Notes under the pieces: model-generated | The model's database searches: none | Told to the model about the DNA's origin: nothing | Seen by the model: only the letters and a program-made list of their open reading frames with translations | Program-made: the position numbers and the translations under genes | Part shown: piece after piece, positions 18,887 to 60,650 of the stretch | How positions within the stretch are numbered: the first letter of the stretch is position 1 | How the letters are laid out: every line of letters begins with the position of its first letter | NCBI RefSeq assembly: GCF_031583575.1 | Contig: NZ_CP134146.1 | Span: 1,240,001 to 1,304,000 of the forward strand | Direction: 5' to 3' | DNA length: 64,000 bases | Source: Thalassotalea nanhaiensis | Lineage (GTDB): Bacteria > Pseudomonadota > Gammaproteobacteria > Enterobacterales > Alteromonadaceae

Positions 18887-19545
18887 CGAATTACGAAGTA
18901 ACTATCGAAGCATAGCGGATACGGAGCGATAGCGTATTCGAAGTGCAACGTATTCGCAGCAAAGCGCATTCCCATCTCAAAATTTTGGATACCCGAACGA
19001 GTCGGGTATGACGAAATCAGAACCCGTCATTACCGTGAACAACTACAAGGATGTAGGAGGTAAGAGAAGCATGAACTCTTTATCTCACCATCGTCATTAC
19101 CGCGAACGACTCCATGGATGGAGGAGGTAGAGCGAAGCAGGATGCCAGAGCCGAGGCGGTAATCCATACTATTTTACGAATACGACACTCTGTTCCTTCT
19201 AATACATTGCATTACGAAACAACTATCGAAGCACAGCGTATACGGAGCGATAGCGTATTCGAAGTGCAACGTATTCCCAGCAAAGCGCATTCCCATCTCA
19301 AAATTTTGGATACCCAACGAGCCGGGTATGACGAAATCAGAACCCGTCATTACCGCGAACGACTCCATGGATGGGTGAGGTAGAGCGAAGCAGGATGCCA
19401 GAGCCGAGGCGGTAATCCATACTCTTTTACGAATACTACATTCTGTTCCTTCTAATACATTGCATTACGAAACAACTATCGAAGCACAGCGTATACGGAG
19501 CGATAGCGTATTCGAAGTAGCGAAGCTACGTATTCGTACCTTAAG
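18887..19545. repeat. hairpin-repeat array with 253-bp tandem units
   Basis: The 797 bp between the VpsP-like gene and the acyltransferase gene hold no credible gene. Two tandem copies of a 253-bp unit are visible (for example GCATTACGAAACAACTATCG at 19209 and 19462; CGTCATTACCGCGAACGACT at 19092 and 19345), with an older diverged copy from about 18887. Inside are GTATTCG-linked modules (family I) and a family II hairpin at 18989-19009 (ATACCCGA, loop ACGAG, TCGGGTAT). Short open frames here are translations of repeats. The segment from 19546 to 19643 is AT-rich and probably holds the local promoter; AAGGA precedes the next ATG. Confidence 0.85.
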
Positions 19546-19643
19546 TAAAGCGCACTTTTTAATATCCTCCTATTGTATATTTACGCCAACCTTGTATTCT
19601 AAATATAATTTCAATCTCGCCTATTCTCCCAAGGAAAAATTAA

Positions 19644-20279
19644 ATGCCATTACAACCTAAAACCCTCGCCATATTAGGCATAGATGACCACGGTAAAGTC
19701 GCAGCAGAAATCGCTCAACGAAATGGTTACGAAGTTTATTTTTTTGACGACCAACACCCACAACAACAAAAGTGTGGCCACTGGCAAGTTGTTGGCACAG
19801 AACAAGATCTAATTAATCACGGCAATAAGTACGATGAAATTTTTGTTGCCCTTAGTCACAATAAACGCCGAGATGTAAAACTTACTCAATTTAAAAACTT
19901 AGGCTTCAATATTGCGACGCTTATTTCAAAAGACGCCACGGTGAGCAATTTTTGTGAAATAGGTGTTGGTGCCATGATCGTGGCAAATGCATGTATTAAC
20001 TATGGTACTAAAATAGGCGAAGGGACGATCATTAATACGGGAGCAAACATTGATCACTCTTGTACTATTGACGCGTTTGTACACGTTTCACCAGGAGTAA
20101 ACATTGCTGCCGAAGTGAACGTAGGAAACTACTGTTGGATTGGTATTGGCTCTAACTTAATACACCAAATTAACATTGGTCATACCGTTATTACAGGTGC
20201 AGGTGCCGTTATCCTTAACGATGTACCGTCAGAAGTAACAGTCGTTGGTTGTCCTGCTCATATCGTCCGTCGTAAGTAA
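19644..20279 (+). CDS. NeuD/PglD-family sugar O/N-acyltransferase (locus 1)
   Basis: 211 residues: an N-terminal Rossmann-like PglD domain (LAILGIDDHGKVAAEIA) and a C-terminal left-handed beta-helix of hexapeptide repeats (about 95-205). The likely catalytic histidine is in NIDHSCTI. It is clearly related to the PglD of locus 2 (shared FFDD, C-G-x-W, GT-x-x-DLI), but its nucleotide loop reads GIDDHG instead of GGGGHG, so acyl acceptor or cofactor handling may differ. Probable role: transfer of an acetyl or similar group from acyl-CoA to a sugar or sugar nucleotide of locus 1. AAGGA lies a few bases before the ATG. Confidence 0.85.
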   Translation: MPLQPKTLAILGIDDHGKVAAEIAQRNGYEVYFFDDQHPQQQKCGHWQVVGTEQDLINHGNKYDEIFVALSHNKRRDVKLTQFKNLGFNIATLISKDATVSNFCEIGVGAMIVANACINYGTKIGEGTIINTGANIDHSCTIDAFVHVSPGVNIAAEVNVGNYCWIGIGSNLIHQINIGHTVITGAGAVILNDVPSEVTVVGCPAHIVRRK

Positions 20280-20300
20280 TTACTGTTCATTAATTTTCCC

Positions 20301-21722
20301 ATGTCATTCAAAAAAGTCCAATTAAACGCCCCTCATTTAACCTTATGGTTAAGTGAGGATAACGGCCTATTATTTCACGAAGGTAAAAAGGAGTTATCGC
20401 AAATAGAGCCTATTTCTATTGCCCTATTAATGGCTTTAGATGAAGGCTTGACTAATGAGCAAGCATTAATTGAACTGCAACAGTACAGTAGTCTTAGCAA
20501 AGAGCAACTAAAGCCTAGCTTAGCGCAAGTAAAAGCGTTATTTAAAAAGACAGAAGAACAGCACACCTATGCAGATGGTTTATACCCTGAGTTACAAAGT
20601 CATCTGAACCAACAACCAGAGCCAGATTCATTTTGTTTAAAAGTAGCCAATGCAACGTTTGCAATTACCAGTGATGATGAAGATTTATTAAACGAGATCA
20701 AAGAACTGCTCGCGCCGGTTCAAATCATAGCGCCAAATGAAGTACACTTTGCTATTGATATCGAGATATACAAAGGCAACTATCTGCTTGTTTCAAATGA
20801 TATCGTGGTTGAGGAAGGCTTAGCTCAAAATCAAGTCATGCCGGTGTTTATCGACCGTTTGCAAATACTCGCTTACCAGCACAGTGACTACTGTTTTGGT
20901 TTTCATGGTGCGGCGTTAACAAACTGTCATTTCCGCCCTGAACTTGTTTCAGGATCTCTGGAAGCCACAAGCGAAGCTGAAGTCCGTCATTCCCGACTCG
21001 TTCGGGAAACCACAAGCGAAGCTGAAAGCCGTCATTCCGTACTTGTTACGGAAACCATAAACGATTTTGAATCAAAAAACATGGATCCCCGCATGCGCGA
21101 GGAAGACGACGAGACAGTTCCTAGTTCTTCTACAACCATCTTACTACCCGGCGTATCGGGTGCAGGTAAGTCAACCTTAACGGCTGAGTTGTCTACACAA
21201 AACTTCGCGGTATACTCAGATGAAATCATCGCTCTGAATGATGACTTTAACCTTATAGGGCTGAGCTTACCGATGGCAATAAAGTCAGGCAGTTGGCAAC
21301 ACATTGCAAACCTATACCCGGAGCTTAATACTCAGCCAGAATGGCATCGAGTAGACGGCCGTATTTTAAAATACATTTGGCCAGCGCACATAGCAGAACA
21401 TACTGAATCAGATATTCATCAGGAAAACGGTGAACCTTCATCATCACTTCCTGAACTTGTTTCAGGATCTATTTCAACATCCCACAAAACACTGCTCATA
21501 AACCCAAGCTACAGCAAAAACGCAAGCCCAAAAGCCACCAAACTTTCAGTGACCCACACCATCGCTTTAGTCACAAACGGCGGGTACCAACTAGGCGTTG
21601 AATTAACAGAGGAGAGGGTTGAGCAATTAATACGTTTTTGCGAACAAATAAGCGCATACCAAATAACGTATTCAAGCAGTGAACACGCTCAACAATTGGT
21701 AGATCAAATATGCGAGAAGTAA
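20301..21722 (+). CDS. PqqD-like/HprK-related kinase fusion with repeat-derived insert
   Basis: 473 residues. Residues 1-90 look like a PqqD-type winged-helix domain (short N-terminal beta strands, then ISIALLMALDEGLTNEQALIEL). Residues about 115-470 resemble HprK-related kinases: FGFHGAALT, Walker A LLPGVSGAGKST near residue 283, then SDEIIAL. Between AALT and Walker A lies an insert of about 65 residues (about 209-275: CHFRPELVSGSLEATSEAE and so on) encoded by family II hairpins; a second smaller one follows at about 383-390. PqqD, HprK-like and nucleotidyltransferase genes occur together in the HPr-rel-A type system of exopolysaccharide loci, matching the next gene. The phosphorylated substrate is unknown. 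Confidence 0.75.
   Translation: MSFKKVQLNAPHLTLWLSEDNGLLFHEGKKELSQIEPISIALLMALDEGLTNEQALIELQQYSSLSKEQLKPSLAQVKALFKKTEEQHTYADGLYPELQSHLNQQPEPDSFCLKVANATFAITSDDEDLLNEIKELLAPVQIIAPNEVHFAIDIEIYKGNYLLVSNDIVVEEGLAQNQVMPVFIDRLQILAYQHSDYCFGFHGAALTNCHFRPELVSGSLEATSEAEVRHSRLVRETTSEAESRHSVLVTETINDFESKNMDPRMREEDDETVPSSSTTILLPGVSGAGKSTLTAELSTQNFAVYSDEIIALNDDFNLIGLSLPMAIKSGSWQHIANLYPELNTQPEWHRVDGRILKYIWPAHIAEHTESDIHQENGEPSSSLPELVSGSISTSHKTLLINPSYSKNASPKATKLSVTHTIALVTNGGYQLGVELTEERVEQLIRFCEQISAYQITYSSSEHAQQLVDQICEK
20937..21053. repeat. three family II hairpins inserted in frame in the HprK-like gene
   Basis: Three consecutive hairpins have different stems but the same loop type: CCTGAA-CTTGT-TTCAGG (20937-20953), TTCCCGA-CTCGT-TCGGGAA (20990-21008) and TTCCGTA-CTTGT-TACGGAA (21035-21053). 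They are joined by two near-identical copies of CACAAGCGAAGCTGAA. All are read in frame without stops. A further copy, CCTGAA-CTTGT-TTCAGG, sits at 21450-21466 in the same gene (peptide PELVSGS). Confidence 0.9.
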
Positions 21723-22891: not shown

Positions 22892-22931
22892 TACGTGTAC
22901 AACACAGGTGTGCATATACTTTATTTTTGAG

Positions 22932-22957: not shown

Positions 22958-22964
22958 TGACCCT

Positions 22965-23823: not shown

Positions 23824-23839
23824 CAACTGATAGATACCT

Positions 23840-24095
23840 AACCGTCTTCGAAGTGACACGTATTCGAAGTAGCGAAGCTACGTATTCGAAGGTACAAAGT
23901 ACCGTATCCGAAACGATAGTGTATTCGAAGGTACAAAGTACCGTATTCGAAACAACTGTGTATTGAATTTATGCCTTTTGGAGCCAAACCAATGGGCGGA
24001 AGCGTGCCTAAAATGCCTGCGTTATTAATCAACTATCGAAGCGCAGCGTATTCGCAGCAAAGCGTATCCGAAGGTACGAAGTACCGTATTAGAAC
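23840..24095. repeat. family I hairpin array between rfaH and wzb
   Basis: Modules of the form stem-triloop-stem linked by GTATTCG: GTAGC-GAA-GCTAC (23869-23881), GGTAC-AAA-GTACC (23891-23903 and 23930-23942) and GGTAC-GAA-GTACC (24073-24085), plus shorter unpaired modules. The array is interrupted by unrelated sequence at about 23955-24030, which contains the ops-like element. Confidence 0.85.
23995..24006 (+). promoter_or_regulatory. ops/JUMPstart-like element
   Basis: GGCGGAAGCGTG differs from the E. coli ops core GGCGGTAGCGTG at one base (position 6, A for T). The upstream GCCAAACCAATG resembles the end of the JUMPstart leader. It lies about 100 bp before wzb, the first gene of the capsule operon, and 170 bp after rfaH, as expected for RfaH recruitment. 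The changed base is one that E. coli RfaH contacts, so function needs proof. Confidence 0.55.
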
Positions 24096-25826: not shown

Positions 25827-28061
25827 ATGACTGAACAGATCAAAAAATCGCGATTAAGCGCCAACAACGACGAACAAGCAAGTGATGATATCGATTTTGC
25901 TCGATATTTTAACCTGCTCCTTGAGAGCAAGTTTTTGATCGTAACCGTAACCGGCATTTTTGCGCTGGTTGGGATCGTCTTTGCCTTATTACAAACGCCC
26001 ATTTATAAAGCCGATGCGTTGGTTCAAATTGAACAAAAAGCCTCTGGTGTTCCCGGTCTTGGTGATATGGAAGAGTTATTTGGCGCTGAAAGTAAGGCCA
26101 TCACTGAAATCGAATTGTTGAAATCGCGTAAAGTACTGGGCGATGCCGTCGATCATTTAAAATTAGACATTGTCGCCACGCCGAAATACCTCGGAAAGCT
26201 TGGTCAATATTACGATCGTACGCATAACGCAACTTCATTCAACAACCCACTCATCGCGTCGTTATTTTCAGACTCATATGCCTGGGGCGGCGAAGACATT
26301 ACGGTTCGTCAATTAAAGGTTGCGGATCGGTATTTAGGCCATTACTTTGAGCTGTTCCTAGAAGCCAATAACCGCTTCTCATTGTATTCGGGTGAGCAAA
26401 AACTGCTCAGCGGTAGTACTAATGAAGTGGCCAAGAGTGCAAATAACGACATTCAACTGTTAGTGACCAACCTGGTAGGCGAACCGGGCACGGCGTTTGT
26501 GGTGAGTAAATTATATCGTGCAGATGCCATTGCCAATTTGCAACACAGCTTGCAAGTAGCCGAAAAAGGCAAACAGTCAGGGATTTTAACCCTGGCGCTT
26601 GAAGGCCCGAACCGACGCAAGGCAGAGCGCACTTTAAACGCCATTGCGGATGCCTTCTTACTGCAAAATGTCAAACGCATGAGCCAGGAAGTTGAAAAGT
26701 CGATTGAATTTTTAAACAGTGAACTGCCCAAAATTGACGGCAAACAAATTGCCGCCGAAGAGCAGTTAAACAAATATCGTTTAGACAACGACTCGGTTGA
26801 TCTGACCTTGGAAACCGAATCCGTGCTTGAGCAGCTGGTTGAAATTGAAACAAAAATTCACGAGTTATCCTTTTTAGAAGTCGATATTGCGCAAAAGTAC
26901 ACCAAAGAACACCCAAGGTACGTATCGCTTTTAGCCAAAAAACGTGATCTGGAAGCCCAAAAAGCACAACTAAACCAAAACGTGAAAGGGTTACCAAAAG
27001 CACAGCAGCAAATTTTGCGTATGGCGCGCGACGTGGAAGTGAATCAACAAATCTACTTAGCGCTACTAAACAAAGTACAAGAGCTGAACGTGGTAAAAGC
27101 CTCTACTGTCGGCAACATTAATATTGTTGATTACGCCCAAGTGGGTCGTTACCCGATTAAACCGAAGAAATCATTGATCGTAGTGATTATTACCATGCTG
27201 GGTGGGTTCTTAGCGGTGGCGTTTGTGATCCTTAAGGCTGCGTTTCATCGTGGCGTGACCAACCCGTCTGAGTTTGAAGACGTTGGCCTTACGGTATATG
27301 CCACCATTCCATTATCCGAAGAGCATGTAAAACGCACGCAAAAACAAAAGCTGCGTGAAAAAGTGAAATCCAACACAAAGAAAAGGCAAGCCACCGAGCT
27401 GCTTGCTGAGGTCAATTCAAGTGATATGGCCATAGAAGCCATTCGCAGCTTAAGAACAAGTTTACACTTTGCCATGCTGGAAGCAAAAAACAATGTGGTG
27501 ATGATCTCTGGCGCAAGCCCTGAGGTGGGTAAATCCTTCGTATCATCCAACCTTGCCGCGGTCATTGCGCAAGCGGGTCAAAAAGTCTTGCTGGTCGATG
27601 GTGATATGCGCAAAGGCTATCTGCAAAAAGTATTCAATACACAATGGGACAATGGGTTATCCGATCACTTAATTGGTGACATCACCTTCGAGCAAACCGT
27701 TAAAGACACCAGCACTGACAATTTGCACATAGTCACACGAGGGCAGGTACCACCAAACCCTAGTGAGCTGTTAATGAGTGAGCATTTTACGAATTTCATC
27801 AACAAAGCATCCGCTGACTATGATTTAGTGATCATCGATACGCCGCCAATTTTAGCGGTGACCGATGCCGCGATTATCGGTAACCAAGCCGGCACCACAT
27901 TAATGCTGGCCCGATACGACATGAGCCCGTTAAAAGAAATTATCACCGCGGCGAATCGATTCGATTTAAACGGCGTCGAGATCAAAGGCCTCATATTTAA
28001 CGCCGTTGAAAAACGCAACAGCGATTACGGCTATTACAACTACGGGTACGACTACAAGTAG
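25827..28061 (+). CDS. wzc: Wzc tyrosine autokinase (locus 2)
   Basis: 744 residues: TM1 (about 33-53), a periplasmic Wzz domain with coiled coils (about 55-445), TM2 (about 448-470, LIVVIITMLGGFLAVAFVIL), then the BY-kinase with Walker A SGASPEVGKSF near residue 560, A' LLVDGDMRKGY and B IIDTPPIL. The tail NSDYGYYNYGYDYK is the phosphorylated tyrosine cluster. It partners Wza and Wzb in export. From residue about 192 onward it is nearly identical to a truncated second copy at 31016-32680. Confidence 0.95.
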   Translation: MTEQIKKSRLSANNDEQASDDIDFARYFNLLLESKFLIVTVTGIFALVGIVFALLQTPIYKADALVQIEQKASGVPGLGDMEELFGAESKAITEIELLKSRKVLGDAVDHLKLDIVATPKYLGKLGQYYDRTHNATSFNNPLIASLFSDSYAWGGEDITVRQLKVADRYLGHYFELFLEANNRFSLYSGEQKLLSGSTNEVAKSANNDIQLLVTNLVGEPGTAFVVSKLYRADAIANLQHSLQVAEKGKQSGILTLALEGPNRRKAERTLNAIADAFLLQNVKRMSQEVEKSIEFLNSELPKIDGKQIAAEEQLNKYRLDNDSVDLTLETESVLEQLVEIETKIHELSFLEVDIAQKYTKEHPRYVSLLAKKRDLEAQKAQLNQNVKGLPKAQQQILRMARDVEVNQQIYLALLNKVQELNVVKASTVGNINIVDYAQVGRYPIKPKKSLIVVIITMLGGFLAVAFVILKAAFHRGVTNPSEFEDVGLTVYATIPLSEEHVKRTQKQKLREKVKSNTKKRQATELLAEVNSSDMAIEAIRSLRTSLHFAMLEAKNNVVMISGASPEVGKSFVSSNLAAVIAQAGQKVLLVDGDMRKGYLQKVFNTQWDNGLSDHLIGDITFEQTVKDTSTDNLHIVTRGQVPPNPSELLMSEHFTNFINKASADYDLVIIDTPPILAVTDAAIIGNQAGTTLMLARYDMSPLKEIITAANRFDLNGVEIKGLIFNAVEKRNSDYGYYNYGYDYK

Positions 28062-28195
28062 CGCAGACGGGTAAAGGCCTAATAGGTCAACCTTGTGGCA
28101 AATACTCACACATTATCCATTAGAAACACCGTCATCCCGGAGGAGCACTAGCGACATCCGTGACCTCCTGCAGTTATACTGTGGCTCGGAAAGAA

Positions 28196-28240
28196 ATTAA
28201 AAACTGGCTAAATCAAACAAAAAACTGACAAAGGCCTCAA
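28196..28240 (+). promoter_or_regulatory. conserved leader before tviB (copy 1)
   Basis: AACTGGCTAAATCAAACAAA then AAACTGACAAAG lies about 120 bp before the tviB start. Nearly the same sequence stands before the second tviB at 33943-33974, while the flanks differ. The 261-bp gap also holds a GTCATCCCGGAGGAGCAC stretch (from 28132) that looks like a degenerate dispersed repeat, and no gene. Probably a leader or promoter element carried with tviB. Confidence 0.45.
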
Positions 28241-28322
28241 AAAAACACTGACCAGACAACATGAATTTATTTATTTTTCTGGTAAAACAAACTATCTTAA
28301 TTAATCACAGTAGGAAAGCATT

Positions 28323-29603
28323 ATGAGTTTTTCATTAGAAAATTCAAACATCGCAGTGCTTGGCCAAGGCTATGTTGGCCTGCCATTAGCGGTAGAATTC
28401 GGAAAAAAATTTAAAACATTAGGTTTTGATATCAACCAAGCAAGAATTGCTGAACTCCAATCAGGTACAGATTCAACACTCGAGGTGAGCGCTGAAGAAT
28501 TGGCCGAATCTACGCATATTTCCTATTCTGCCAATGTAGATGATTTAAAAGCCTGCAATATTTATATTGTTACCGTACCTACGCCAATTGATGAACATAA
28601 AAAACCCGATTTAACCCCACTTATTAAAGCAAGTCAAATGCTAGGTAAAGTGGTTAGTGCCGGTGATATTATCATTTATGAATCTACCGTATACCCAGGT
28701 GCAACCGAAGAAGTTTGTTTACCAGAAGTTGAAAAAGTTTCTGGTTTAACCTTCAACAAAGATTTCTTTGCTGGTTATTCACCTGAGCGTATTAATCCTG
28801 GGGATAAAGAACACCGTGTTATCAACATTAAAAAGGTCACATCAGGATCAAACGATGAAATTGCCACGTTTGTAGATGACTTATATAAAAGCATCATCAT
28901 TGCCGGCACCCACAAAGCATCAAGCATTAAAGTGGCAGAGGCGGCAAAGGTCATCGAAAATACCCAACGTGATGTTAACATTGCCTTAATCAATGAACTT
29001 GCCATCATCTTTAATAAATTAAACATTGATACATTAGAAGTTCTAGAAGCAGCTGGTACGAAATGGAACTTCTTACCGTTCCGTCCTGGTCTTGTTGGTG
29101 GACATTGTATCGGAGTTGATCCGTACTACTTAACTCACAAAGCTGAATCTGCGGGTTATCATCCTGAAATGATCTTAGCGGGTCGTCGCTTAAACGATAA
29201 CATGGGTAGCTATGTTGTTTCTCAGCTTGTTAAAAGCATGCTTAAAAAAGGCATTCAAGTGAAAGATGCCAATGTTTTAGTTATGGGCTTAACCTTTAAA
29301 GAGAATTGTCCTGATTTACGAAACACCAAAGTTGTTGATATCGTGTCGGAACTAAAAGATTACAACATGAATGTTGATATCTTAGATCCTTGGTGTTCAT
29401 CAACGGAAGCCGAACACGAATATGGTTTATCTACGATCAAAGATGCTGAGAGCGAAAAATATGATGCCGTAATTTTAGCGGTCGCTCATAATGAATTTAA
29501 AGTTATGGGCGCAGAAGCTATTAAAGCATTAGGTAAATCAGATAGCGTCATTTACGATTTGAAGTACGTACTTCCAAAAGAGTCTGTAGACATAAGACTT
29601 TAA
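28323..29603 (+). CDS. tviB: TviB-type UDP-N-acetylglucosamine/-galactosamine 6-dehydrogenase (copy 1)
   Basis: 426 residues, full length for the family. NAD-binding glycines are in [16 protein letters not shown] (residues 12-27), the active-site cysteine near residue 260 in [16 protein letters not shown], and substrate residues in [16 protein letters not shown]. It oxidises a UDP-HexNAc to the uronic acid, as in Vi antigen and WbpA/WbpO pathways. Paired with the TviC-type epimerase downstream it would deliver UDP-GalNAcA or UDP-GlcNAcA. The second copy at 34098 is highly similar but clearly diverged. Confidence 0.93.
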
Positions 29604-29629
29604 TAATAAGCTTACAATCGTACCACTTT

Positions 29630-29795
29630 ACAACGTCATTCCCGCGCAGGCGGGAATCTATATTAAACGAATATATTTAACCTTAGTTTCGCAAACAGCT
29701 GCCTTGATGTGAAGTTAGAGCGTAGCAGTTTACTAGAACCATACTAAAATATTCACCTACAGCAGTCGTTTTCGCGAAGACGGGAATCCATAGTA
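29630..29795. repeat. REP-like hairpins between tviB and tviC
   Basis: ATTCCCGC-GCAG-GCGGGAAT (29638-29657) is a perfect 8-bp hairpin preceded by CGTC, a common dispersed palindrome form. A degenerate version with TTTTCGCGAAGACGGGAATCC lies at about 29768-29790. No gene is seen in the 199-bp gap. Confidence 0.7.
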
Positions 29796-29802
29796 AAAAA
29801 TT

Positions 29803-30834
29803 ATGACTAAATACGAACAAATAAAAAAAGACCTACTAGTTAATCCTAAAACTTGGCTTGTAACAGGTGTTGCCGGTTTCATTGGCTCAAATCTTTTAGA
29901 ACATCTATTAAAACTAAATCAAACTGTTATAGGCCTAGACAATTTCGCTACAGGTCATCAACATAACCTTGATGAAGTAGAAGGTGAAGTAACTGCTGAG
30001 CAATGGGCTCGCTTCACTTTTTATGAAGGTGATATCCGAAGCCTTGATGCTTGTAAACAAACTGTATCAGGTGCTGATTATGTCCTTCATCAAGCAGCAC
30101 TTGGTTCTGTGCCGCGCTCTATTAACGATCCTGCTACCACTAATGATGTAAATATTTCAGGTTTCTTAAATATGCTTATCGCTGCCCGTGATGAGAAAGT
30201 TGAAAGCTTTACCTACGCAGCATCTAGTTCTACCTATGGTGATCATCCTGCACTTCCAAAAGTAGAAGAAAACATCGGCAACCCGTTATCACCTTATGCT
30301 GTAACAAAGTACGTTAATGAGTTATACGCGGATGTATTTGCAAAAACCTATGATTTTAACACCGTTGGTTTACGTTACTTTAATGTTTTTGGTAAGCGTC
30401 AGGATCCAAACGGTGCATATGCGGCTGTTATACCAAAATGGACTGCTGCAATGATCGAAGGCGAAGAAGTGTTTGTTAACGGAGATGGTGAAACGAGTCG
30501 AGATTTTTGTTTTATTGAAAACGTTGTGCAAATGAATATTCTAGCGTCTATTGCAGATAAAGAAGCTAAAAATAATGTATTTAATGTAGCTGTCGGCGAT
30601 AGAACAACCCTGAATACATTGTATGATAGTATCCAAAATGCTCTCAACAGCAATTGTATTGTTTGCGATTCAAAACCTACTTACAGAGATTTTAGAGCAG
30701 GAGATGTGAGACATTCTCAAGCTGACATAACAAAAGCTAAAACATTACTTGGGTTTGAGCCACAGTTTAGAATTCAAGAAGGAATTGATAAAGCAATGCC
30801 TTGGTACATTAAGTTTCTAAATGAGAAATCATAA
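29803..30834 (+). CDS. tviC: TviC/WbpP-type UDP-N-acetylhexosamine(-uronate) 4-epimerase (copy 1)
   Basis: 343 residues, an extended short-chain dehydrogenase. The NAD motif is [16 protein letters not shown] (residues about 21-36), the catalytic Ser region AASSSTYGD and Tyr/Lys in [30 protein letters not shown] is typical of the TviC/WbpP group. It interconverts Glc- and Gal-configured UDP-HexNAc(A). It follows tviB and stands 3 bp before the truncated rfbB. A second copy is at 35506. Confidence 0.92.
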
Positions 30835-30837
30835 ATC

Positions 30838-31041
30838 ATGATAATATTAGTAACAGGTGGCGCAGGCTTTATCGGCTCAGCTGTCATTCGGCATATCATT
30901 CAAAGCACTGCAGACTCAGTTATCAATGTCGATAAGTTAACGTACGCAGGCAATTTAGAGTCTTTAGCCGAGGTGCCAGACAGCCCTCGTTACGTATTTT
31001 CTCAAACAGATATTTGTGACGCAAAAACTGCTCAGCGGTAG
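30838..31041 (+). pseudogene. rfbB: truncated dTDP-glucose 4,6-dehydratase (rfbB N-terminus)
   Basis: Only about 61 residues of RfbB remain: [32 protein letters not shown] and SQTDICDAK, which match the start of the roughly 350-residue family. The frame then runs into sequence homologous to wzc (identity starts at about 31020) and stops at 31041. The catalytic domain is missing, so no function is expected. It marks the left edge of a recombination junction. Confidence 0.9.
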
Positions 31042-32680
31042 TACTAATGAAGTGGCCAAGACCTCAAATAACGACATTCAGCTGTTAGTGACCAACTTGG
31101 TCGGCGAACCGGGCACGGCGTTTGTGGTGAGCAAATTATATCGTGCTGACGCCATTGCCAATTTGCAACAAAGCTTGCAAGTGGCCGAAAAAGGCAAACA
31201 GTCGGGCATTTTAACCCTGGCGCTTGAAGGCCCGAACCGACGCAAGGCAGAGCGCACTTTGAACGCCATTGCGGATGCCTTCTTGCTGCAAAATGTCAAA
31301 CGCATGAGCCAGGAAGTGGAAAAGTCGATTGAATTTTTAAACAGCGAATTGCCCAAAATTGACGGTAAACAAATTGCCGCGGAAGAGCAGTTAAACAAAT
31401 ATCGTTTAGACAACGACTCGGTTGATCTGACCTTAGAAACCGAATCCGTGCTTGAGCAGCTGGTTGAAATTGATACAAAAATTCACGAATTGTCCTTTTT
31501 AGAAGTCGACATTGCGCAAAAGTACACCAAAGAACACCCAAGGTACGTATCGCTCTTAGCCAAAAAACGTGATCTGGAAGCCCAAAAAGCTCAATTAAAC
31601 CAAAACGTGAAAGGGTTACCGAAAGCACAACAGCAAATTTTGCGTATGGCGCGCGACGTGGAAGTGAATCAACAAATCTATTTAGCCCTACTGAATAAAG
31701 TGCAAGAGCTGAACGTGGTGAAGGCCTCTACTGTCGGCAACATCAACATTGTCGATTATGCCCAAGTTGGCCGATACCCAATTAAACCCAAGAAATCATT
31801 GATCGTGGTTATCATTACCATGCTAGGCGGCTTCTTAGCGGTGGCGTTTGTGATCCTTAAGGCAGCGTTTCATCGTGGCGTGACCAACCCGTCTGAGTTT
31901 GAAGACGTTGGCCTCACGGTATATGCCACCATTCCATTATCAGAAGAGCATGTAAAGCGCACGCAAAAACAAAAGCTGCGTGAAAAAGTGAAATCCAACA
32001 CAAAGAAAAGGCAAGCCACCGAGCTGCTTGCTGAGGTCAATTCAAGTGATATGGCCATTGAAGCCATTCGCAGCTTAAGAACAAGCTTACACTTTGCGAT
32101 GTTGGAAGCGAAAAACAATGTGGTGATGATCTCTGGCGCGAGCCCTGAGGTGGGTAAATCCTTCGTATCATCAAACCTTGCCGCTGTCATTGCGCAAGCG
32201 GGTCAAAAAGTCTTGCTGGTCGATGGTGATATGCGCAAAGGCTATCTGCAAAAAGTATTCAATACACAATGGGACAATGGGTTATCCGATCACTTAATTG
32301 GTGACATAACCTTCGAGCAAACCGTTAAAGACACCAGCACTGACAATTTGCACATAGTCACACGCGGGCAGGTACCACCAAATCCTAGCGAGCTGTTAAT
32401 GAGTGAGCACTTTACGAATTTCATCAACAAAGCATCCGCTGATTATGACTTAGTGATCATCGATACGCCGCCAATTTTAGCGGTCACCGATACCGCGATT
32501 ATCGGTAACCAAGCCGGCACCACATTAATGCTGGCCCGATACGACATGAGCCCGTTAAAAGAGATCATTACCGCGGCAAATCGATTCGATTTAAACGGCG
32601 TTGAGATCAAAGGCCTCATATTTAACGCCGTTGAAAAACGCAACAGCGATTACGGCTATTACAATTACGACTATAAGTAG
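31016..32680 (+). pseudogene. wzc: truncated second wzc (C-terminal three quarters)
   Basis: The sequence from 31020 matches wzc from 26397 to its stop. The first roughly 190 codons, including TM1 and the start of the Wzz domain, are missing. What is left is the coiled-coil periplasmic part, TM2, an intact kinase (Walker A SGASPEVGKSF, A' LVDGDMRKGY) and the tail YGYYNYDYK. The frame is undamaged and could start at the GTG at 31016. A count over the first 310 bp gives 16 differences, mostly silent, and only a few residues differ over the 554. Lacking TM1, the periplasmic part cannot be placed normally; a soluble or misplaced kinase could interfere with Wzc or be silent. Confidence 0.85.
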
Positions 32681-32797
32681 GGCTGCAGGGTAAGGCCCAA
32701 TAGGCCAACCTGCTGGGATATCGTATTGAAAGTCCCTAAACACGCAGCTTTAAATAATACCGATAAAGCACCTTAATCAACATTACCAAAAGATAAT

Positions 32798-33922
32798 ATG
32801 AAAAGATTAGAACTGTTAGATTACGGAAGATTTTTCGCAGCTATTATGGTTGTTGTATTTCACTATACACTTAGTGGGATAACGAATGGAAAAATTTTTT
32901 CAATAAGTCAAACCCCTATGTTAATTGAAATAACTAAATACGGTTATCTTGGTGTAGAATTATTTTTTATGATTAGCGGTTACGTTATTTTTTTTTCCGC
33001 TAAAGATAGAACTGCATCAGAATTTGCGATAGGTCGTGTCATAAGACTTTATCCCTCCTATTGGTTTGCTGTACTGTTCACGTCAGCTTTCGCAGCTTTT
33101 TGGGGAGGAAACATAATGTCAGTGTCACCTGTTCAAATTCTTGTTAACTTCTCAATGGTACAATCCTTATTTGGGGTGGCTCATATTGACGGAGTTTACT
33201 GGACATTAATCTACGAATTAATATTTTACTTTGCTGTATTTTTATTGTTACTCCTTGGTCTTCAAAGATATTTAAGGGTGATTTTCATTTGTTGGCCTAT
33301 TTTATTTTGTATAGCGTATGTGTTTGATATAGGTTCTTTACCTTATGTAGGTAATTATTTTTATTATTTTTCTGCTGGAACTATTTTTGCTTTACTAGCT
33401 GATAGATTTAGTTGGCGAGCTTGCTTGAGCCTAATCATCGTGTTTGTATTTTGCATAGTATTTTCGACAGGAAAAGTTGATTCACTGTCTGCATCCAAGG
33501 GAGTACAATATTCTTCGTTCACCATTGCTTTAATTGTTAGTTCGTTTTTCATGTTTTTTGTTTATCAAAACAGCCAAAAAGGAAAGTCACTGAAACTTCC
33601 AATGTCTAAGCTAGCAGGTGCATTAACATATCCGATATATTTAATACATGCGCATTTTGGTTTCATGTTTCTTAATAAATTTGCGACAAATAACAATAAA
33701 ATACTCATGTACATATTAACTTTTTTAATTGTACTTTTAGTTTCAGCTTTTATGCATTTAGTAATTGAAAGGCGCCTTTACCAAGTATGGAAGTATTTGT
33801 TTGTAACATTAATTGGTAAGCCCATTCAGGCTGTTCAAAATATTTTATTGAAACTTAAAAACACTACTAATAATTTATGTCTTGTTTTTGGTGCTGCTGT
33901 AAAGGATTTTTTGACTCCGTAA
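32798..33922 (+). CDS. acyltransferase family 3 (OafA-like O-acetyltransferase)
   Basis: 374 residues with about ten TM helices. The N-terminal motif LLDYGRFFAAIMVVVFHYTLSG (given in parts: DYGRFFAAIMVVVFHY) contains the conserved R and H of acyltransferase-3 enzymes, and FFMISGYVIFFSAKDR is the second family block. It transfers acetyl groups from cytoplasm to a glycan at the membrane. It stands between the wzc fragment and the second tviB, and its AT-rich composition matches the serotype-specific genes rather than its wzc neighbour. Confidence 0.9.
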   Translation: MKRLELLDYGRFFAAIMVVVFHYTLSGITNGKIFSISQTPMLIEITKYGYLGVELFFMISGYVIFFSAKDRTASEFAIGRVIRLYPSYWFAVLFTSAFAAFWGGNIMSVSPVQILVNFSMVQSLFGVAHIDGVYWTLIYELIFYFAVFLLLLLGLQRYLRVIFICWPILFCIAYVFDIGSLPYVGNYFYYFSAGTIFALLADRFSWRACLSLIIVFVFCIVFSTGKVDSLSASKGVQYSSFTIALIVSSFFMFFVYQNSQKGKSLKLPMSKLAGALTYPIYLIHAHFGFMFLNKFATNNNKILMYILTFLIVLLVSAFMHLVIERRLYQVWKYLFVTLIGKPIQAVQNILLKLKNTTNNLCLVFGAAVKDFLTP

Positions 33923-33942
33923 TGTACTTTTGTGAAGAATTT

Positions 33943-33974
33943 TAACTGGCTAAATAAAAGCAAAACTGACAAAG
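33943..33974 (+). promoter_or_regulatory. conserved leader before tviB (copy 2)
   Basis: AACTGGCTAAATAAAAGCAA followed by AACTGACAAAG repeats the leader found before the first tviB, here about 150 bp before the start codon. The rest of the 175-bp gap holds no gene. Confidence 0.45.
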
Positions 33975-34097
33975 ATATCAAAAGTACGGCTTAATTGCGG
34001 CAAAGGCTGTTTAAGTCGCACCCAAAATAATTAACTTAAATTAAACCTGAATCAATATCATCGATTCGAATCCAAAGAGAATAAACAGGGACATCTT

Positions 34098-35378
34098 ATG
34101 AATTTGTCATTAGATAATATCAAAATTGCAGTAATCGGCCAAGGCTATGTTGGCCTGCCATTAGCAGTTGAATTTGGTAAAAAAATGCCAACACTTGGTT
34201 TTGATATAAACCAAGAACGTATTGCCGAGTTAAATTCTGGCAATGATTCAACTCTGGAAGTCAGCCCTGAAGAATTAGCTGAATCAAAGCACATTTCTTA
34301 TTCTGCCAATGTAGATGATTTAAAAGGCTGTAATGTGTACATCATTACAGTACCTACACCGATTGATGTTCATAAGAATCCAGACCTTACACCGCTGCTC
34401 AAAGCAAGTGAGATGCTAGGTAAGGTTGTATCACAAGGTGACGTGCTTATCTATGAATCAACAGTTTATCCGGGGGCGACCGAAGAGGACTGTATTCCTG
34501 TTGTTGAACGTGTATCAGGTTTAACATTCAATAAGGAATTCTTCGCTGGTTATTCGCCAGAGCGAATTAATCCTGGAGATAAAGAACACCGTGTAACGAA
34601 TATAAAAAAAGTTACTTCTGGTTCGACGCCTGAAATCGCGACGTTTGTTGATGACTTATACAACACGGTTATTACTGTTGGTACGCATAAAGCAGCAAGC
34701 ATTAAAATTGCAGAAGCGGCAAAGGTTATAGAAAATACGCAACGCGATGTAAACATTGCTTTAATTAATGAGTTAGCACTTATATTTAACAAGCTTGGCA
34801 TTGATACACTAGAAGTATTAGAAGCAGCTGGCACAAAGTGGAATTTCTTGCCATTCCGTCCAGGTCTTGTAGGCGGACATTGTATCGGCGTTGATCCTTA
34901 TTACTTAACCCATAAAGCGCAAAGTATTGGTTACAATCCTGAAATGATCCTAGCTGGTCGTCGCTTGAACGATAACATGGGCGAGTACGTTGTTTCTCAA
35001 CTGGTAAAAAACATGGTTAAGAAAGGCATCAAAATTAAAGATGCGAATGTATTAGTCATGGGTTTAACCTTTAAAGAAAACTGCCCTGATTTACGTAACA
35101 CTAAGGTAGTTGATATTGTTTCTGAGTTACACGAATACAACATGATTGTTGACATTCTAGAGCCTTGGTGCTCATCGAAAGAAGCAATGCATGAATATGG
35201 TTTATCCACAATTAAGGAGGCTGAAAGCGATAAATATGACGCAGTAATCTTAGCCGTTGCTCATAACGAGTTTAAAGTCATGGGCTCAGAAAAAATTCGT
35301 GCGTTAGGTAGAACAGATAGCATAATATACGACTTAAAATATGTGCTAACTAAAGAAGCTGTAGACATAAGGTTATAG
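34098..35378 (+). CDS. tviB: TviB-type UDP-HexNAc 6-dehydrogenase (copy 2)
   Basis: 426 residues, the same length as copy 1 and similar throughout, with conserved [34 protein letters not shown] and [16 protein letters not shown]. Differences are spread along the chain (for example DEHKK/DVHKN and LPEVEK/IPVVER) and many silent changes separate the genes. The two copies therefore diverged well before they came together. Likely the same reaction; a different HexNAc preference is possible but not shown by the sequence. Confidence 0.93.
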
Positions 35379-35394
35379 TACTTACTTTCGATAT

Positions 35395-35411
35395 CCTGAA
35401 CTTGTTTCAGG
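35395..35411. repeat. family II hairpin between tviB and tviC (copy 2)
   Basis: CCTGAA-CTTGT-TTCAGG, identical in core to the hairpins found inside three genes of this window. It lies 16 bp after the tviB stop. Confidence 0.85.
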
Positions 35412-35505
35412 GCCTCTTTGAATTTATACAAATATCAGGAGAAATAGCGGAGAATAGCAGTGAGTAACTTTAGTTTCTCGTTCATCGTTCCCGTTCCTTC
35501 CACTC

Positions 35506-50315: not shown

Positions 50316-50429
50316 TGGTTTTTTTCTATATTTTGATTATTGATGGCCGGAGTATAACGATAAAGGCTGTTATGTTTTGTTAACTTAATGCAGGCATGTG
50401 TTATTGCCGCATTGAAATATAGGGTAACG

Positions 50430-50620
50430 GATACGTAGCTTTGCTACTTCGAATACGCTGGCGCTTCGAATACGGTACTTCGTACCTTCGAATATGATAA
50501 TGCTTCGAGGGAGTAAAGAAGCAGATCCTGAAACAAGTTCAGGAAGTGGTAGGGGAGAAACAACTTCTTCGTGGTTCGTAGTGAAACGTATTCGTGATTC
50601 GTATTGAAACGTATTCGTGA
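50430..50620. repeat. mixed family I and II hairpin array
   Basis: GTAGC-TTT-GCTAC (50435-50447), GGTAC-TTC-GTACC (50474-50486) and the family II hairpin CCTGAA-ACAAG-TTCAGG (50527-50543), followed by GAAACGTATTCGTGATTCG repeats to about 50620. It fills most of the 386-bp gap between the divergent barrel and YjbH-like genes; nothing else is seen. Confidence 0.85.
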
Positions 50621-50701: not shown

Positions 50702-52999
50702 ATGGACATGCGCAATTTACTCTTTCCTTCTGTGGTTGTTTTGCTTACTTGTGGCTCAAGTCTCGTTGTTAATGCAACAAGTAGTGAAAACACTCAAGTA
50801 AAAAACAGCTCATCAATGCAAGCCTATTCTGGTGTATTTAATACCCCGAATGCAGAAGTTGTTGATTGGGGAAACTTTGCGTTTAGCTATAGTGATAATT
50901 ACTCTGACAGAGCCTCACAATTTATCGACAAACCCGGTTTCGTCGTTGCGAACGATATGAAGTTTGCAGTGGGTTTATTACCAAACTTGGAAGTTGTTGG
51001 TCGGTTGGCTACTCGAAACTGGGACTGCAACAGTTTTGAAGAATCAGGTTGTGGTTTTCGTGATTTATCGGGTTCATTTAAGTGGCAAGTGCCATTTATT
51101 CCTAAAGATTGGTTTTCAGTTGCTCTAGGTGGGCAAGACGTTGCCGGTGCCGCTTCTTTCTCTGAAGCCTACTATTTAACTGCCTCTAAAGAGTTCAACT
51201 TTAAGTCATTTGGCGCGTTACGAACTAGCGCAGGCGTATCAACTTCAGACAATACTATTGGCTATATGGATGGAGTGATTGGCTCTGTTGAATATCAGCC
51301 TGTTGAATATTTGCAAGTGGCAGCAGAATACGATGCTAATGCAGTAAATGTTGGGGTTAAATTGTTTGCTCCCGAACGGTGGCTACCAAATGGTTGGGAT
51401 ATTCATGTTGGGGCACAGTTGTATTCAAGTGACGATGCGCGTAATGAACGAGACCAATGGTTTAGTTTTGGTATAAGTGTTCCGCTTGGCAATAGTAATA
51501 CAAGAGCGAATAGCAAAACAGGTACTAATGCGCCTAATGGCTCGAATACGCTTCGCTCCGAATCCGCTTCGCTTAGAGGCAAAACAAAAGCAGATCCTGA
51601 AACAAGTTCAGGAAGTGTTGGGAAAGAAACTCGTTCGCTGAAAAACACTTCGGATACGCTCCGCTCCGAGTCCGCTACACTTCGAGATAGGTCAAAAGTT
51701 GATTCGAAAACGTTGGAAGATTTTGCCGCTTACCTTGTTGATTATGGTTTTGAATCTGTGTCGGTAGGTGTTATGGAAAGAGGTACGAATACGCCTAACG
51801 GCTCGAATACGCTTCGCTCCGAATCCGCTGCGCTTCGAGGAAAGGTAGAAGCAGATCCTGAAACAAGTTCAGTAAATGGTGGGGAAGGAACGGCTGCGCT
51901 TCGAGGGAATGACGGTAATATTGTAGTCGTTCGATTTGAGAATAATTTATTTAATCGCGATGAGCGTGAGGCGGTTAATGTTGTTACTGATTTGGTTCGC
52001 TCACGATTAGGTGTTGATGCTGTTATTGAATTGACTAATTATGGCTTAGTTGTTTCTAGCCACGCTGTTCTTCAAAATGGTGGCGAATACGCTTCGCTGC
52101 AAGCTGACTCTGATTGGTTTGCTGAAGACTCTATTGATTGGCTAGTAGATGATTCTGCTTCTGCACACTTTGTACCTCGTTTGATTTTATCGCCAAAATT
52201 GGTCTCGTTTATTGGTACTGAATATGGGGCTTATGATTATCAATTAGTGCTTAGTTCAAATGTTCAAATGAGCTTATGGCCTGGAGCTGTTATTGATATC
52301 CGACATTTATCTAATACGTTAGCAAACTCTGATGATTTTGATGATGGTGAGTACTTTAAACAGTATTATGGAATTAAAGAAGGCATAGACCGCAGAATGT
52401 TTCATCAATCGTTTAAATTACCGTTTCAAATAACCAGTAAATTTAGTTACGGTCGAATGGATGGCGAGTTCGATGGTGGATTAAATGAAACCCGCTGGGC
52501 GAATGAAGCTAATACGCATAGGGTAAATGTATTATATGGTGAATTTGAATCTGAAATTAGTGCTTGGGGTGGTAAGAAAACTCTTGAATATACGCCTAAA
52601 TTAATTAAATACAGATATCGCTATAAGCCGCTCAATTGGGATGTAGAATTAACGGCAGGTGAATACATGCAAGGTGACAAAGGTTTTACTTTACGCTCGC
52701 TGCACTGGTTTGGCGATGTACAGGTAGGTGTTAGGTATCGTAAAACCAAGTTTGACGACATTGATGGTGGTGAAGAAGAAGATTTTGTCGCCTTTGGCTT
52801 TTCAATTCCTCTTACCTTTGGTAAGTCGATGAAATCAAGTTACGGTGTACAAGTACGCGGCACAGAGCAATGGGATTACTACGTTGAAACTAATTTGGAA
52901 TCCGAAGGCAATGCAAATTTGATCAAAACAGGGTTTGGCCAAGAGCCAAGGCTTTATCATAATTTAAACCAGGCTTATTTTAACCGCGATAGAAATTAG
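50702..52999 (+). CDS. YjbH-like outer-membrane exopolysaccharide protein with repeat-derived insert
   Basis: 765 residues with a signal peptide (LFPSVVVLLTCGSSLVVNA). The N-terminal part (SGVFNTPNAEVVDWGNFAFSY, then GLLPNLEVVGRLATRN) and the C-terminal beta-rich part match the YjbH/WbfB group that accompanies capsule and exopolysaccharide export. Residues about 275-405 are different: a low-complexity block built three times from NTLRSESA-LRG and ADPETSS, encoded by hairpin repeats. Without it the length would fit YjbH (near 700). The insert is in frame and probably lies in a loop. An ATG at 50708 is an alternative start. Confidence 0.8.
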   Translation: MDMRNLLFPSVVVLLTCGSSLVVNATSSENTQVKNSSSMQAYSGVFNTPNAEVVDWGNFAFSYSDNYSDRASQFIDKPGFVVANDMKFAVGLLPNLEVVGRLATRNWDCNSFEESGCGFRDLSGSFKWQVPFIPKDWFSVALGGQDVAGAASFSEAYYLTASKEFNFKSFGALRTSAGVSTSDNTIGYMDGVIGSVEYQPVEYLQVAAEYDANAVNVGVKLFAPERWLPNGWDIHVGAQLYSSDDARNERDQWFSFGISVPLGNSNTRANSKTGTNAPNGSNTLRSESASLRGKTKADPETSSGSVGKETRSLKNTSDTLRSESATLRDRSKVDSKTLEDFAAYLVDYGFESVSVGVMERGTNTPNGSNTLRSESAALRGKVEADPETSSVNGGEGTAALRGNDGNIVVVRFENNLFNRDEREAVNVVTDLVRSRLGVDAVIELTNYGLVVSSHAVLQNGGEYASLQADSDWFAEDSIDWLVDDSASAHFVPRLILSPKLVSFIGTEYGAYDYQLVLSSNVQMSLWPGAVIDIRHLSNTLANSDDFDDGEYFKQYYGIKEGIDRRMFHQSFKLPFQITSKFSYGRMDGEFDGGLNETRWANEANTHRVNVLYGEFESEISAWGGKKTLEYTPKLIKYRYRYKPLNWDVELTAGEYMQGDKGFTLRSLHWFGDVQVGVRYRKTKFDDIDGGEEEDFVAFGFSIPLTFGKSMKSSYGVQVRGTEQWDYYVETNLESEGNANLIKTGFGQEPRLYHNLNQAYFNRDRN
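51527..51915. repeat. three in-frame repeat cassettes inside the YjbH-like gene
   Basis: AATACGCTTCGCTCCGAATC occurs at about 51545 and 51796, with a variant near 51650. Family II hairpins follow at 51596-51612 (perfect) and 51857-51873 (one arm degenerate). The encoded peptides are [22 protein letters not shown] and close variants. All copies keep the frame and avoid stops. Confidence 0.85.
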
Positions 53000-53095
53000 A
53001 TGCGGATACGCTTCGCTTCGAATACGTCACTACGTGACTCCGAATACGCTAGCGCTTCTATAATTACTTCGATATTCGAAGTGCAACGTTTTCGT
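52999..53095. repeat. family I hairpin array after the YjbH-like gene
   Basis: GTCAC-TAC-GTGAC (53026-53038) within GGATACGCTTCGCTTCGAAT and CGAATACGCTAGCGCTTC modules. The remainder of the gap to 53283 has GTTGTTGTTGTTGTT and no gene; it probably holds the lipoprotein promoter. Confidence 0.8.
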
Positions 53096-54329: not shown

Positions 54330-54560
54330 ACGAATGCATCACTAAGTGATTTCGAATACGCTGACGCTTCGATAGTAAAACGTATATGACATCTTAAAAA
54401 CCAGTGCAATTAGCACTGGTTTTTGTTTATATTACATTTAAGTTTCGAATACGTTTCACTACGGATGCGTCACTACGTGACTGCGAATACGCTGCGCTTC
54501 TATAGTTGCTTCGTGATTCGGAATGAAATGTATTCGATGGCGCAGAGCGCCGTATTTGAA
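54330..54560. repeat. family I hairpins flanking a terminator
   Basis: ATCAC-TAA-GTGAT (54338-54350) and GTCAC-TAC-GTGAC (54469-54481), among CGAATACG linkers. The two stems differ by a paired change (A-T against G-C at the base). The terminator at 54396 stands between them. Confidence 0.8.
54396..54424 (+). terminator. strong rho-independent terminator after the lipoprotein gene
   Basis: AAAAACCAGTGC (54396-54407) pairs fully with GCACTGGTTTTT (54413-54424) around the loop AATTA. A-rich on one side and T-rich on the other, so it could work in both directions. Confidence 0.9.
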
Positions 54561-55299: not shown

Positions 55300-55420
55300 A
55301 TACGAATACGTAGCTACGCTACTTCGGATACGCTACTTCGGATACGCTAACGCTACGTATTCGCTGTGTTTCGAAGAGCGGGAAAAGAAAGGTAGCTCCT
55401 GAAACAAGTTCAGGAAGTGG
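55300..55420. repeat. mixed hairpin array upstream of manC
   Basis: GTAGC-TAC-GCTAC (55310-55322), several CGGATACGCTA modules, and the family II hairpin CCTGAA-ACAAG-TTCAGG (55398-55414). It fills the centre of the 336-bp gap between the divergent barrel gene and manC; the remaining sequence shows no gene. Confidence 0.85.
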
Positions 55421-56988: not shown

Positions 56989-57009
56989 CTTAGCTATTGT
57001 CAATATGCT

Positions 57010-57125
57010 GACGCTGCGCTTAGTTACGAATACATCACTACGTGATTTCGAATATGGTACTTCGTACCGCCGAATACGCTGACGCTTCGATAGCTTCTGA
57101 GTAATCCCTAGTGCAACGTATTCGC
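57010..57125. repeat. family I hairpin array between manC and manB
   Basis: ATCAC-TAC-GTGAT (57034-57046) and GGTAC-TTC-GTACC (57056-57068), with CGAATACGCTGACGCTTCGA modules. The ATCAC/GTGAT stem compared with GTCAC/GTGAC elsewhere is a compensated base-pair change. Confidence 0.85.
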
Positions 57126-57162
57126 AATTCGTAACTAGTAAACATAAATACTGAGGAATAAA

Positions 57163-58695: not shown

Positions 58696-58734
58696 TAAGT
58701 GTAGGTTTACGTTTAAATTTGCAGGATAACAATA

Positions 58735-59901: not shown

Positions 59902-60118
59902 ACTTTAGATACGAATACGGTACTTCGTACCTCCGAATACGTCACTACGTGACTCCGGATACGTTACACTTCGATAGTTGCTTCGTGATTCAGAGTGAAG
60001 CGTAATTTCGGATACGTAGCTTCGCTACTTCGAATACGTCACTACGTGACTCCGGATACGTTACACTTCGATAGTTGCTTCGTAATTCGAAGTGAAACGT
60101 ATTCGAGATTCGTCACTT
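59902..60118. repeat. family I hairpin array with a 97-bp tandem repeat
   Basis: GGTAC-TTC-GTACC (59919-59931), GTCAC-TAC-GTGAC (59941-59953 and 60038-60050) and GTAGC-TTC-GCTAC (60016-60028). A 97-bp unit beginning CGAATACGTCACTACGTGAC is present at 59934 and again at 60031. The array ends at the stop codon of the four-helix-bundle gene. Confidence 0.9.
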
Positions 60119-60120
60119 AG

Positions 60121-60474
60121 TTATGAAGTTGTTTTCGTTTTTAAGTATTTCATAAATCCACCTAGCATTTTTGAAATTTCTTCAGATTCTTTGAGCCAGG
60201 CGTCGCCACTTTCTTTTGAAATGTAGCCTACTTTCATTCCTACATAAGTTTGCGTTTTAAATTCACCAAGTGAACCTTTAGCGATTGTTAAAAATCGAAA
60301 TTTTTCTTGTGGGGTATACCTTTCGAGCCCTTCGGCGACGTTACTGGGAACAGAAAGACAGGAGCGGGTGATTTGATCTTTAAAGCCATAATCTTTCAAT
60401 GACGCAAGAGACTTGTACACAGTAGTACTTAATTCGCAACTTCGCTGCCATAGATCTAAACTTTCGTATTGCAT
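60121..60474 (-). CDS. four-helix-bundle protein (23S rRNA IVS / S23 family)
   Basis: 117 residues from the ATG at 60474, which has AAGGA 7 bp upstream; a longer start at 60501 has none. The family pattern is clear: ESLDLWQRSCELSTTVYKS, FKDQITRSCLSVPSNVAEG, FLTIAKGSLGEFKTQ, and the closing amphipathic helix. These proteins form pentameric bundles, are found in 23S rRNA intervening sequences and related loci, and bind nucleic acid by inference only. No rRNA or reverse transcriptase is nearby. Hairpin arrays flank it on both sides. Confidence 0.88.
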   Translation of the reverse strand: MQYESLDLWQRSCELSTTVYKSLASLKDYGFKDQITRSCLSVPSNVAEGLERYTPQEKFRFLTIAKGSLGEFKTQTYVGMKVGYISKESGDAWLKESEEISKMLGGFMKYLKTKTTS

Positions 60475-60529
60475 TGTAATATCCTTATAGATGAGCTGCA
60501 CACCCTGTGCATAAAAATAAGCATAGACG

Positions 60530-60650
60530 AGTTTTTCGGATACGGCACTTCGTGATTAGTTACTGATGAAACTTAGATAACTGCTTCGGAATGAAATGTA
60601 TTCGTAGTGCAGCGTATTCGAAGGGGCAGAGCGCCGTATTCGTTCCTGAG
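60530..60650. repeat. degenerate family I repeat array upstream of ycjX
   Basis: GGATACGGCACTTCGTGATT, GCGTATTCGAAGGGGCAGAG and GTATTCG-linked modules, mostly with imperfect stems. The gap to 60733 also has a short AT-rich stretch likely holding the ycjX promoter. Confidence 0.7.

Follow-up and report, generated by a model that had tools for sequence, protein, structure and literature searches.

Bacterial genomes commonly carry intergenic palindromic repeats, and the question of what maintains them is open. Modular repeats are also known, such as BOX, the modules of which are around 45–60 nt long. Repetitive extragenic palindromes (REPs) have been described as being bound in the form of folded single-stranded DNA, in a strand-specific manner (PMC8266576), and the sequence GCGNAGC appears in several of the enterobacterial REPs tabulated in a further study (PMC2817692). 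For oligonucleotides, extraordinarily stable DNA mini-hairpins have been described by a rule requiring two or more G-C pairs capped by a GNA or GNNA loop (PMC4686876). Here we describe a repeat family from a 64,000-nt stretch of Thalassotalea nanhaiensis (NZ_CP134146.1, positions 1,240,001 to 1,304,000, referred to as the window throughout). For one protein encoded in the window, the named relatives were all from Pseudoalteromonas, at 46–49% identity, as would suit a gammaproteobacterium close to Alteromonadales. The family is a dispersed inverted-repeat element, the halves of which are strings of mini-hairpins spaced by a constant GTATTCG linker.

Linkers were located by scanning the window, 28 stretches of the source genome (G000; 4.31 Mb, single contig) and 12 stretches of a sister species (G005) for every GTAT[T/C]CG, giving 393 positions; the scanned stretches were mostly picked for holding matches and the densities are not genome averages. 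The constant linker that an initial annotation of the window had pointed out is borne out, the window having 34 copies of CGAATACG, whereas 100 shuffles gave 1.29 on average and never more than 5. In either orientation the window holds 59 linkers, of which 49 fall into ten clusters of 3–8; the other ten stand alone, including at least one (at 52084) that is also module-like. A perfect 5-bp stem with a triloop was present at 64 of the 393 positions, four of five pairs at 22 and three or fewer at 307, many of the latter being chance linkers or short modules. Compensated stems therefore exceed single mismatches. Eleven of twelve control stretches from G000 were without a perfect stem, and the twelfth (at 1.60 Mb), with one, turned out to contain elements. 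All eight hairpins located in the initial annotation are 13-mers with five of five Watson-Crick pairs and a 3-nt loop; its four stem types, however, become thirteen perfect types across the G000 and G005 stretches, including two oddities (GCATA and ACTAA).

The distances from linker to linker are dominated by lengths of 15 nt (n = 96), 9 nt (n = 67) and 10 nt (n = 23). The 15-nt interval comprises NA followed by a 5-bp hairpin with a triloop, the 9-nt interval NA followed by a 7-nt hairpin (2-bp stem, triloop), and the 10-nt interval NA followed by 8 nt that form a 2-bp hairpin with a 4-nt loop in 19 of the 23 cases. The 96 modules of the 15-nt class include 58 distinct sequences, showing that the copies are not all identical duplicates. 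In many elements inspected by eye, a string of CGAATAC-oriented modules is followed by a centre (approximately TTACGAAGYARYTATCGAAG) and a string of GTATTCG-oriented modules, together forming an inverted repeat in which the module numbers on the two sides are often unequal. Both this architecture and the short modules had escaped the earlier description of the arrays. Compared with dinucleotide shuffles (76 of 78 elements, 30 shuffles each), folding gave median z values of −2.9 and −2.7 on the two strands, with 48 and 47 of the 76 elements, respectively, below −2.

The stems covary. Among 57 distinct 5-bp modules 97.9% of cells are paired, compared with 69.0% in shuffles, a figure favoured both by the preselection of the 64 original candidates for at least three Watson-Crick pairs and by the exclusion of seven of them (four perfect with odd linkers, three with 3–4 pairs). 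The covariation score was 0.784 against 0.223 when shuffled, with none of 500 shuffles reaching the observed value and a maximum of 0.120 in six slid registers, confirming that the paired changes noticed initially are real. In the 15-nt intervals, which were not filtered for pairing, 73 of 96 modules are fully Watson-Crick and 85 of 96 are paired with G.T allowed. The 9-nt class, likewise unfiltered, is fully Watson-Crick in 61 of 67 modules and in all 67 if G.T is counted (G-C 57, A-T 8 and G.T 2 in the one pair; T-A 41, C-G 22 and T.G 4 in the other), and its second pair gave a Fisher p value of 4e-7 over 38 distinct sequences. We regard both the element and its covariation as firmly established.

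Over the distinct sequences of the 15-nt and 9-nt classes, 330 cells are Watson-Crick, 20 are G.T, 3 are A.C and 13 are of other kinds. On the defined strand, G.T pairs outnumber A.C pairs (20 versus 3, p = 0.0005, a comparison weakened by the relatedness of the modules), and since a process confined to duplex DNA should give both equally, pairing seems to matter on one strand. A wobble path between stems can be seen at phhB-tyrR, where ACCAC/GTGGT in G005 stands against ATCAC/GTGGT in G000, with ATCAC/GTGAT being found elsewhere. Support for the importance of one particular strand is fairly good.

Loops and closing pairs are also constrained. Read on the GTATTCG strand, the 15-nt class has [G/A]NA loops in 90 of 96 modules (GNA in 70) and a C-G closing pair in 94, with the inverted loop type, TN[C/T], in one. 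Loops of the [G/A]NA type are present in 63 of the 67 9-nt modules (GNA in 45), while the paired 10-nt modules carry GNNA in 16 of 19 and GNRA in one of 19. The variable loops reported initially do vary, although strands had been mixed in that list, TTC, TTT and TAC being the reverse complements of GAA, AAA and GTA. Triloop hairpins of at least 7 bp that lie outside the elements show hardly any enrichment of C(GNA)G (3 of 100 in G000 and 1 of 63 in G005; expected 1.4 and 1.0).

These features bear on a purely mutational explanation, in which the arms would be homogenised without selection as the polymerase switches template from one to the other (quasipalindrome correction), and slippage would multiply the modules. 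Template switching has been described as homogenising arms and also as inverting the spacer (PMC8604942). The first of these effects, together with the excess of perfect over one-mismatch stems and a run of GTACC-type modules, seven in tandem (G000 1326347-1326507), is consistent with such a process. The second predicts inverted loops, of which there is but one in 96, and both the G.T bias and the near-constant C-G closing pair are left unexplained. Of 75 pairs of nearby modules, 22 have the same stem (expected 11.6, permutation 0.011), but with the tandem run removed the sharing falls to 7 of 47 pairs (expected 8.3). We regard this explanation as improbable.

Turnover of the modules was followed at orthologous sites. 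For 28 of 41 G000 elements, the stretches fetched from G005 or from the third carrier species (G010) contained matches to both flanks, giving 34 comparisons with flanks 73–94% identical. Module strings, as read by script, were identical in none of these, different in 26 and opposite a partner without modules in eight. Two ortholog pairs are near-identical, that of 1875617 at 93% of aligned columns and that of 2960294 at 95% over shared columns. The module-free partner of 1208323 in G005 retains a short inverted remnant by eye. Between phhB and tyrR the element is present in three of 15 species, with 4, 6 and 3 linkers, and 12 are without a linker (for G008 over the first 350 bases only). The ortholog differences, together with the stem sharing, indicate gain, loss or exchange of modules, beyond mere local copying.

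Presence and absence between species would also suit an ordinary miniature inverted-repeat transposable element (MITE), bounded by terminal inverted repeats, that a DDE transposase moves as a duplex, with the mini-hairpins as passengers. The inverted arrangement agrees with this, as does a weak consensus, [T/A]A[A/C]CTA, just past the last linker (108 ends; right-end consensus only). However, duplex transposition explains neither the strand-specific loops nor the compensated stems, and a target duplication was not recognised at the compared sites. We consider a MITE very unlikely.

Other repeats were seen at phhB-tyrR. In G008 the region holds an unrelated tandem palindromic repeat of ∼52 bp, in six or more copies by eye, and in G006 a two-copy repeat with an AGAAAC-GAA-GTTTCT hairpin lies in the same place. 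The C(GAA)G hairpin of G006 was looked into and rejected, the three G006 copies of the searched pattern all being at phhB-tyrR, with one in G011 and none in the three other genomes searched.

The distribution of the element was examined with a covariance-model scan of 15 genus genomes, in which the best 150 first-look candidates at most were scored for each and the counts are lower bounds. At least 75 matches were obtained in G000, at least 63 in G005 and at least 10 in G010. One weak match in G004 (E 0.008) is chance-like, with no array seen, and the other 11 genus genomes gave no match among the candidates scored. In a family-wide draw of 147 genomes (best 50 candidates each), in which G005 and G010 were not named, only G000 gave matches at 1e-4. 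The exact spaced pattern was found 30 times in G000 and 16 times in G005 among 117 genomes, with one unpaired match in each of three others. The centre pattern (up to two mismatches) was found in 15 of 294 genomes, the 12 outside the three carriers matching once or twice, as the control does elsewhere. A phage origin was rejected, as 78 IMG/VR stretches fit the spaced pattern but none of 81 matches has three or more of the five pairs, and plasmids gave no match with one element as query. No description of this repeat family was found among the titles and abstract openings listed from one open library.

Along the G000 chromosome, 74 of the 75 model matches lie within 1.156–3.030 Mb of 4.31 Mb, 44 of them within 1.156–1.327 Mb. 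The GC skew of sampled G000 stretches flips sign between 1.87 and 2.4 Mb, and the replication origin is thus probably near the contig ends. Neighbours of the elements include phhB and TyrR (575.1 bits, cut-off 576), nuoA/nuoB (nuoA below cut-offs) and a Lon-related protease gene (below cut-offs). With such core genes among the neighbours, polysaccharide genes are not the common factor, and the association with polysaccharide loci proposed in the initial annotation looks incidental. Twelve of 70 elements are in called open reading frames (ORFs), nine of which are short; of the other three, that at G000 514594 may be a chance cluster.

We tentatively propose, with a confidence somewhat short of even, that this is a non-autonomous REPIN/BOX-like inverted-repeat element, kept as folded single-stranded DNA, in three related species. 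The maintained unit would be the single strand on which the GTATTCG-[G/A]NA hairpins lie, in all likelihood single-stranded DNA exposed at replication forks. Compact GNA/GNNA hairpins could fold there and be recognised by an enzyme processing single-stranded DNA (a RAYT-type HUH enzyme or similar, perhaps no longer active). Modules would be lost, gained and exchanged through slippage or template switching, and stems might shift by point mutation via G.T intermediates, followed by compensation. A bolder form of this proposal is possible but doubtful, namely that the elements are strings of extraordinarily stable single-stranded DNA mini-hairpins in which the three-dimensional form of the hairpin (loop rule plus pairing), and not the sequence, replicates, with stems drifting by G.T-mediated compensation and copies exchanging modules in replication.

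It is uncertain that the maintained strand is DNA rather than RNA. RNA tetraloops prefer GNRA, and the common GNNA and rare GNRA loops of the 10-nt class fit the DNA mini-hairpin rule better than this preference. Along with this loop rule, the suggestion of DNA draws on the 2-bp stems and on the parallel with REP tips (GCGNAGC, in the table of PMC2817692). If the strand were RNA, the hairpins would act in transcripts as 3′-untranslated-region structures stabilising or processing mRNA and would be selected as such, the G.T pairs being G-U. The excess of G.T over A.C on one strand is consistent with this, as is the better folding of the elements than their shuffles on both strands. So too are the excess of elements between convergent genes and the position of the phhB-tyrR element between a stop codon and a terminator-like hairpin. 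On the other hand, the 2-bp stems are not predicted to be stable as RNA, the most favourable value being +2.0 kcal/mol at 37°C (likewise positive, +1.2, with DNA parameters), and the GNRA loop is found just once among the paired 10-nt modules. Divergent regions and an ORF hold elements as well, the module content changes from species to species, and no Rfam match at gathering score was obtained in the 64-kb window. We consider an RNA element rather unlikely.

Several observations weigh against the proposal of folded single-stranded DNA. In the 15-nt class, 11 of 96 modules contain one or more pairs outside the Watson-Crick and G.T types, and the modules share descent, so that counts are not independent. 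In the short modules, the T-A closing pair (41 of 67) and the ANA loops (18 of the 63 [G/A]NA loops of the 9-nt class) are outside the strict stable-hairpin rule, and short modules with a C-G closing pair often carry ANA loops. None of 24 distinct paired heptamers has a nearest-neighbour energy below 0 kcal/mol, as RNA or DNA, in energy models that are insensitive to loop preference, the DNA set scoring all triloops alike. By crude gene calls, the elements per intergenic region are 21 in 90 for convergent, 31 in 300 for codirectional and 6 in 95 for divergent regions (convergent versus the rest, 21 in 90 against 37 in 395). The position of the phhB-tyrR element suits an RNA role too, the downstream terminator-like hairpin being present by eye in 12 of 15 species. 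Neither a clean empty site nor a target duplication was recognised at the compared sites.

A mobilising enzyme was also not found, either by a PF01797 scan of the genus genomes or by a Pfam scan of 30 of the 62 listed window ORFs; in the latter no transposase family was matched, in agreement with the absence of a nearby transposase noted initially. G000, G005 and G010 each have one PF01797 gene, beside galU, with relatives beside galU in G006 and G009. Its HUH position reads QIQ in G000 and HIQ in G005 and G010; some HUH enzymes function with HUQ, and the G005 and G010 proteins are thus not proven dead. Against the RAYT model NF047646 the G000 protein scored 43.8 bits (cut-off 80), and the distance from the gene to the nearest model match is 3.9 kb in G000, 3.5 kb in G005 and 16.3 kb in G010. 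The 3.3-kb PF01797 loci of these three genomes contain no exact GTATTCG, with one variant linker in that of G010. PF01797 is present in 12 of 15 genus genomes and the elements in three, and with galU-linked relatives also in G006 and G009, the RAYT-like gene does not track the element and was rejected as its mobiliser. A reverse transcriptase was likewise rejected as partner, being present in four of 15 genomes with G000 not among them.

In the window the ten clusters are distributed as follows. The first (18916..19536, no strand assigned) has eight linkers and is interleaved at 18950-19500 with a second repeat (GGATACCCGAACGAGTCGGGTATGACG ... GGCGGTAATCCATAC), similar sequence being seen by eye in G010. 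The 253-bp tandem unit of the initial annotation (19088-19212) is present here but is mostly another repeat by eye, whereas its 97-bp unit, from 59921, belongs to element 9. Element 2 (23850..24090, plus strand) lies between a NusG-family gene and a low-molecular-weight phosphatase gene, with seven linkers, one GTAGC module, three GGTAC modules and short modules. The remaining clusters, up to element 9, are on the minus strand. Element 3 (50428..50617; five linkers) occupies a divergent intergenic region upstream of a YjbH-like ORF (50702-52999), inside which four further linkers (51543..51811) leave the frame open. Modules in this ORF (51543-52091) lie in an open frame at approximately residues 265–400, in a linker region differing in the G005 orthologue, with which the protein shares 54% identity overall. 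Element 5 (53003..53048) has three linkers with a GTCAC hairpin and short modules, and element 6 (54330..54540), in a convergent intergenic region, has ATCAC, GTCAC and GGCGC modules. Element 7 (55303..55363) has four linkers with a GTAGC module and short modules, and element 8 (57027..57124) GGTAC and ATCAC modules. Element 9 (59912..60105; seven linkers), in a convergent intergenic region, contains the 97-bp direct duplication with GTCAC, GTAGC and GGTAC modules, and element 10 (60537..60642, plus strand) has four linkers with a GGGGC/GCGCC module (four of five pairs) and short modules.

A gene for a 23S rRNA intervening-sequence protein (PF05635; 60121-60501, minus strand) lies between two elements. 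Elsewhere in the window a wzc-like ORF, a 426-aa ORF and a 342/343-aa ORF are present twice in the same order (25827-30834 and 31016-36534), in what looks like a duplicated capsule block, Pfam supporting the wzc-like assignment in both copies and a UDP-sugar dehydrogenase (the 426-aa ORF) from the first.

With two features that separate the strands (the loop rule, and G.T versus A.C) and the turnover at orthologous sites in three species, the question of a folded single strand as the persisting unit, DNA or RNA, becomes testable with simple oligonucleotides. In common with REP/REPIN and RAYT systems, as these are described in PMC2817692, PMC3116915 and PMC8266576, the element has short intergenic palindromes, inverted doublets and compensatory changes; inverted halves are seen by eye in many elements, often with unequal module numbers on the two sides, and we liken its strand bias to the strand-specific recognition described for REP/RAYT (PMC8266576). 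Unlike REPs, the foot of the palindrome is GTAT[T/C]CG-NA before and mostly GTATTCG after, and there is no GTAG/GTGG head, GTAG being found at the beginning of one type of stem (GTAGC). Nor is a RAYT flanked by the repeats, and many interchangeable stems and strings of 2-bp and 5-bp mini-hairpins replace the REP arrangement, in keeping with the initial annotation's view that this is no standard REP/RAYT pattern. The stable DNA mini-hairpins, for example d(GCGAAGC), share the GNA/GNNA loop on a 2-bp stem (PMC4686876), but many modules differ from that oligonucleotide motif in their T-A closing pair or ANA loop. The Streptococcus pneumoniae BOX element, as presented in PMC3049150, resembles the family in its modularity, variable inner modules, convergent-gene excess and size variation between orthologs, and here too the inner modules vary at orthologous sites. 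Modules of 16–22 nt, covarying stems and the inverted arrangement set the element apart from BOX. The element works like a hybrid of REPIN and BOX and, as tested, falls outside the REP family.

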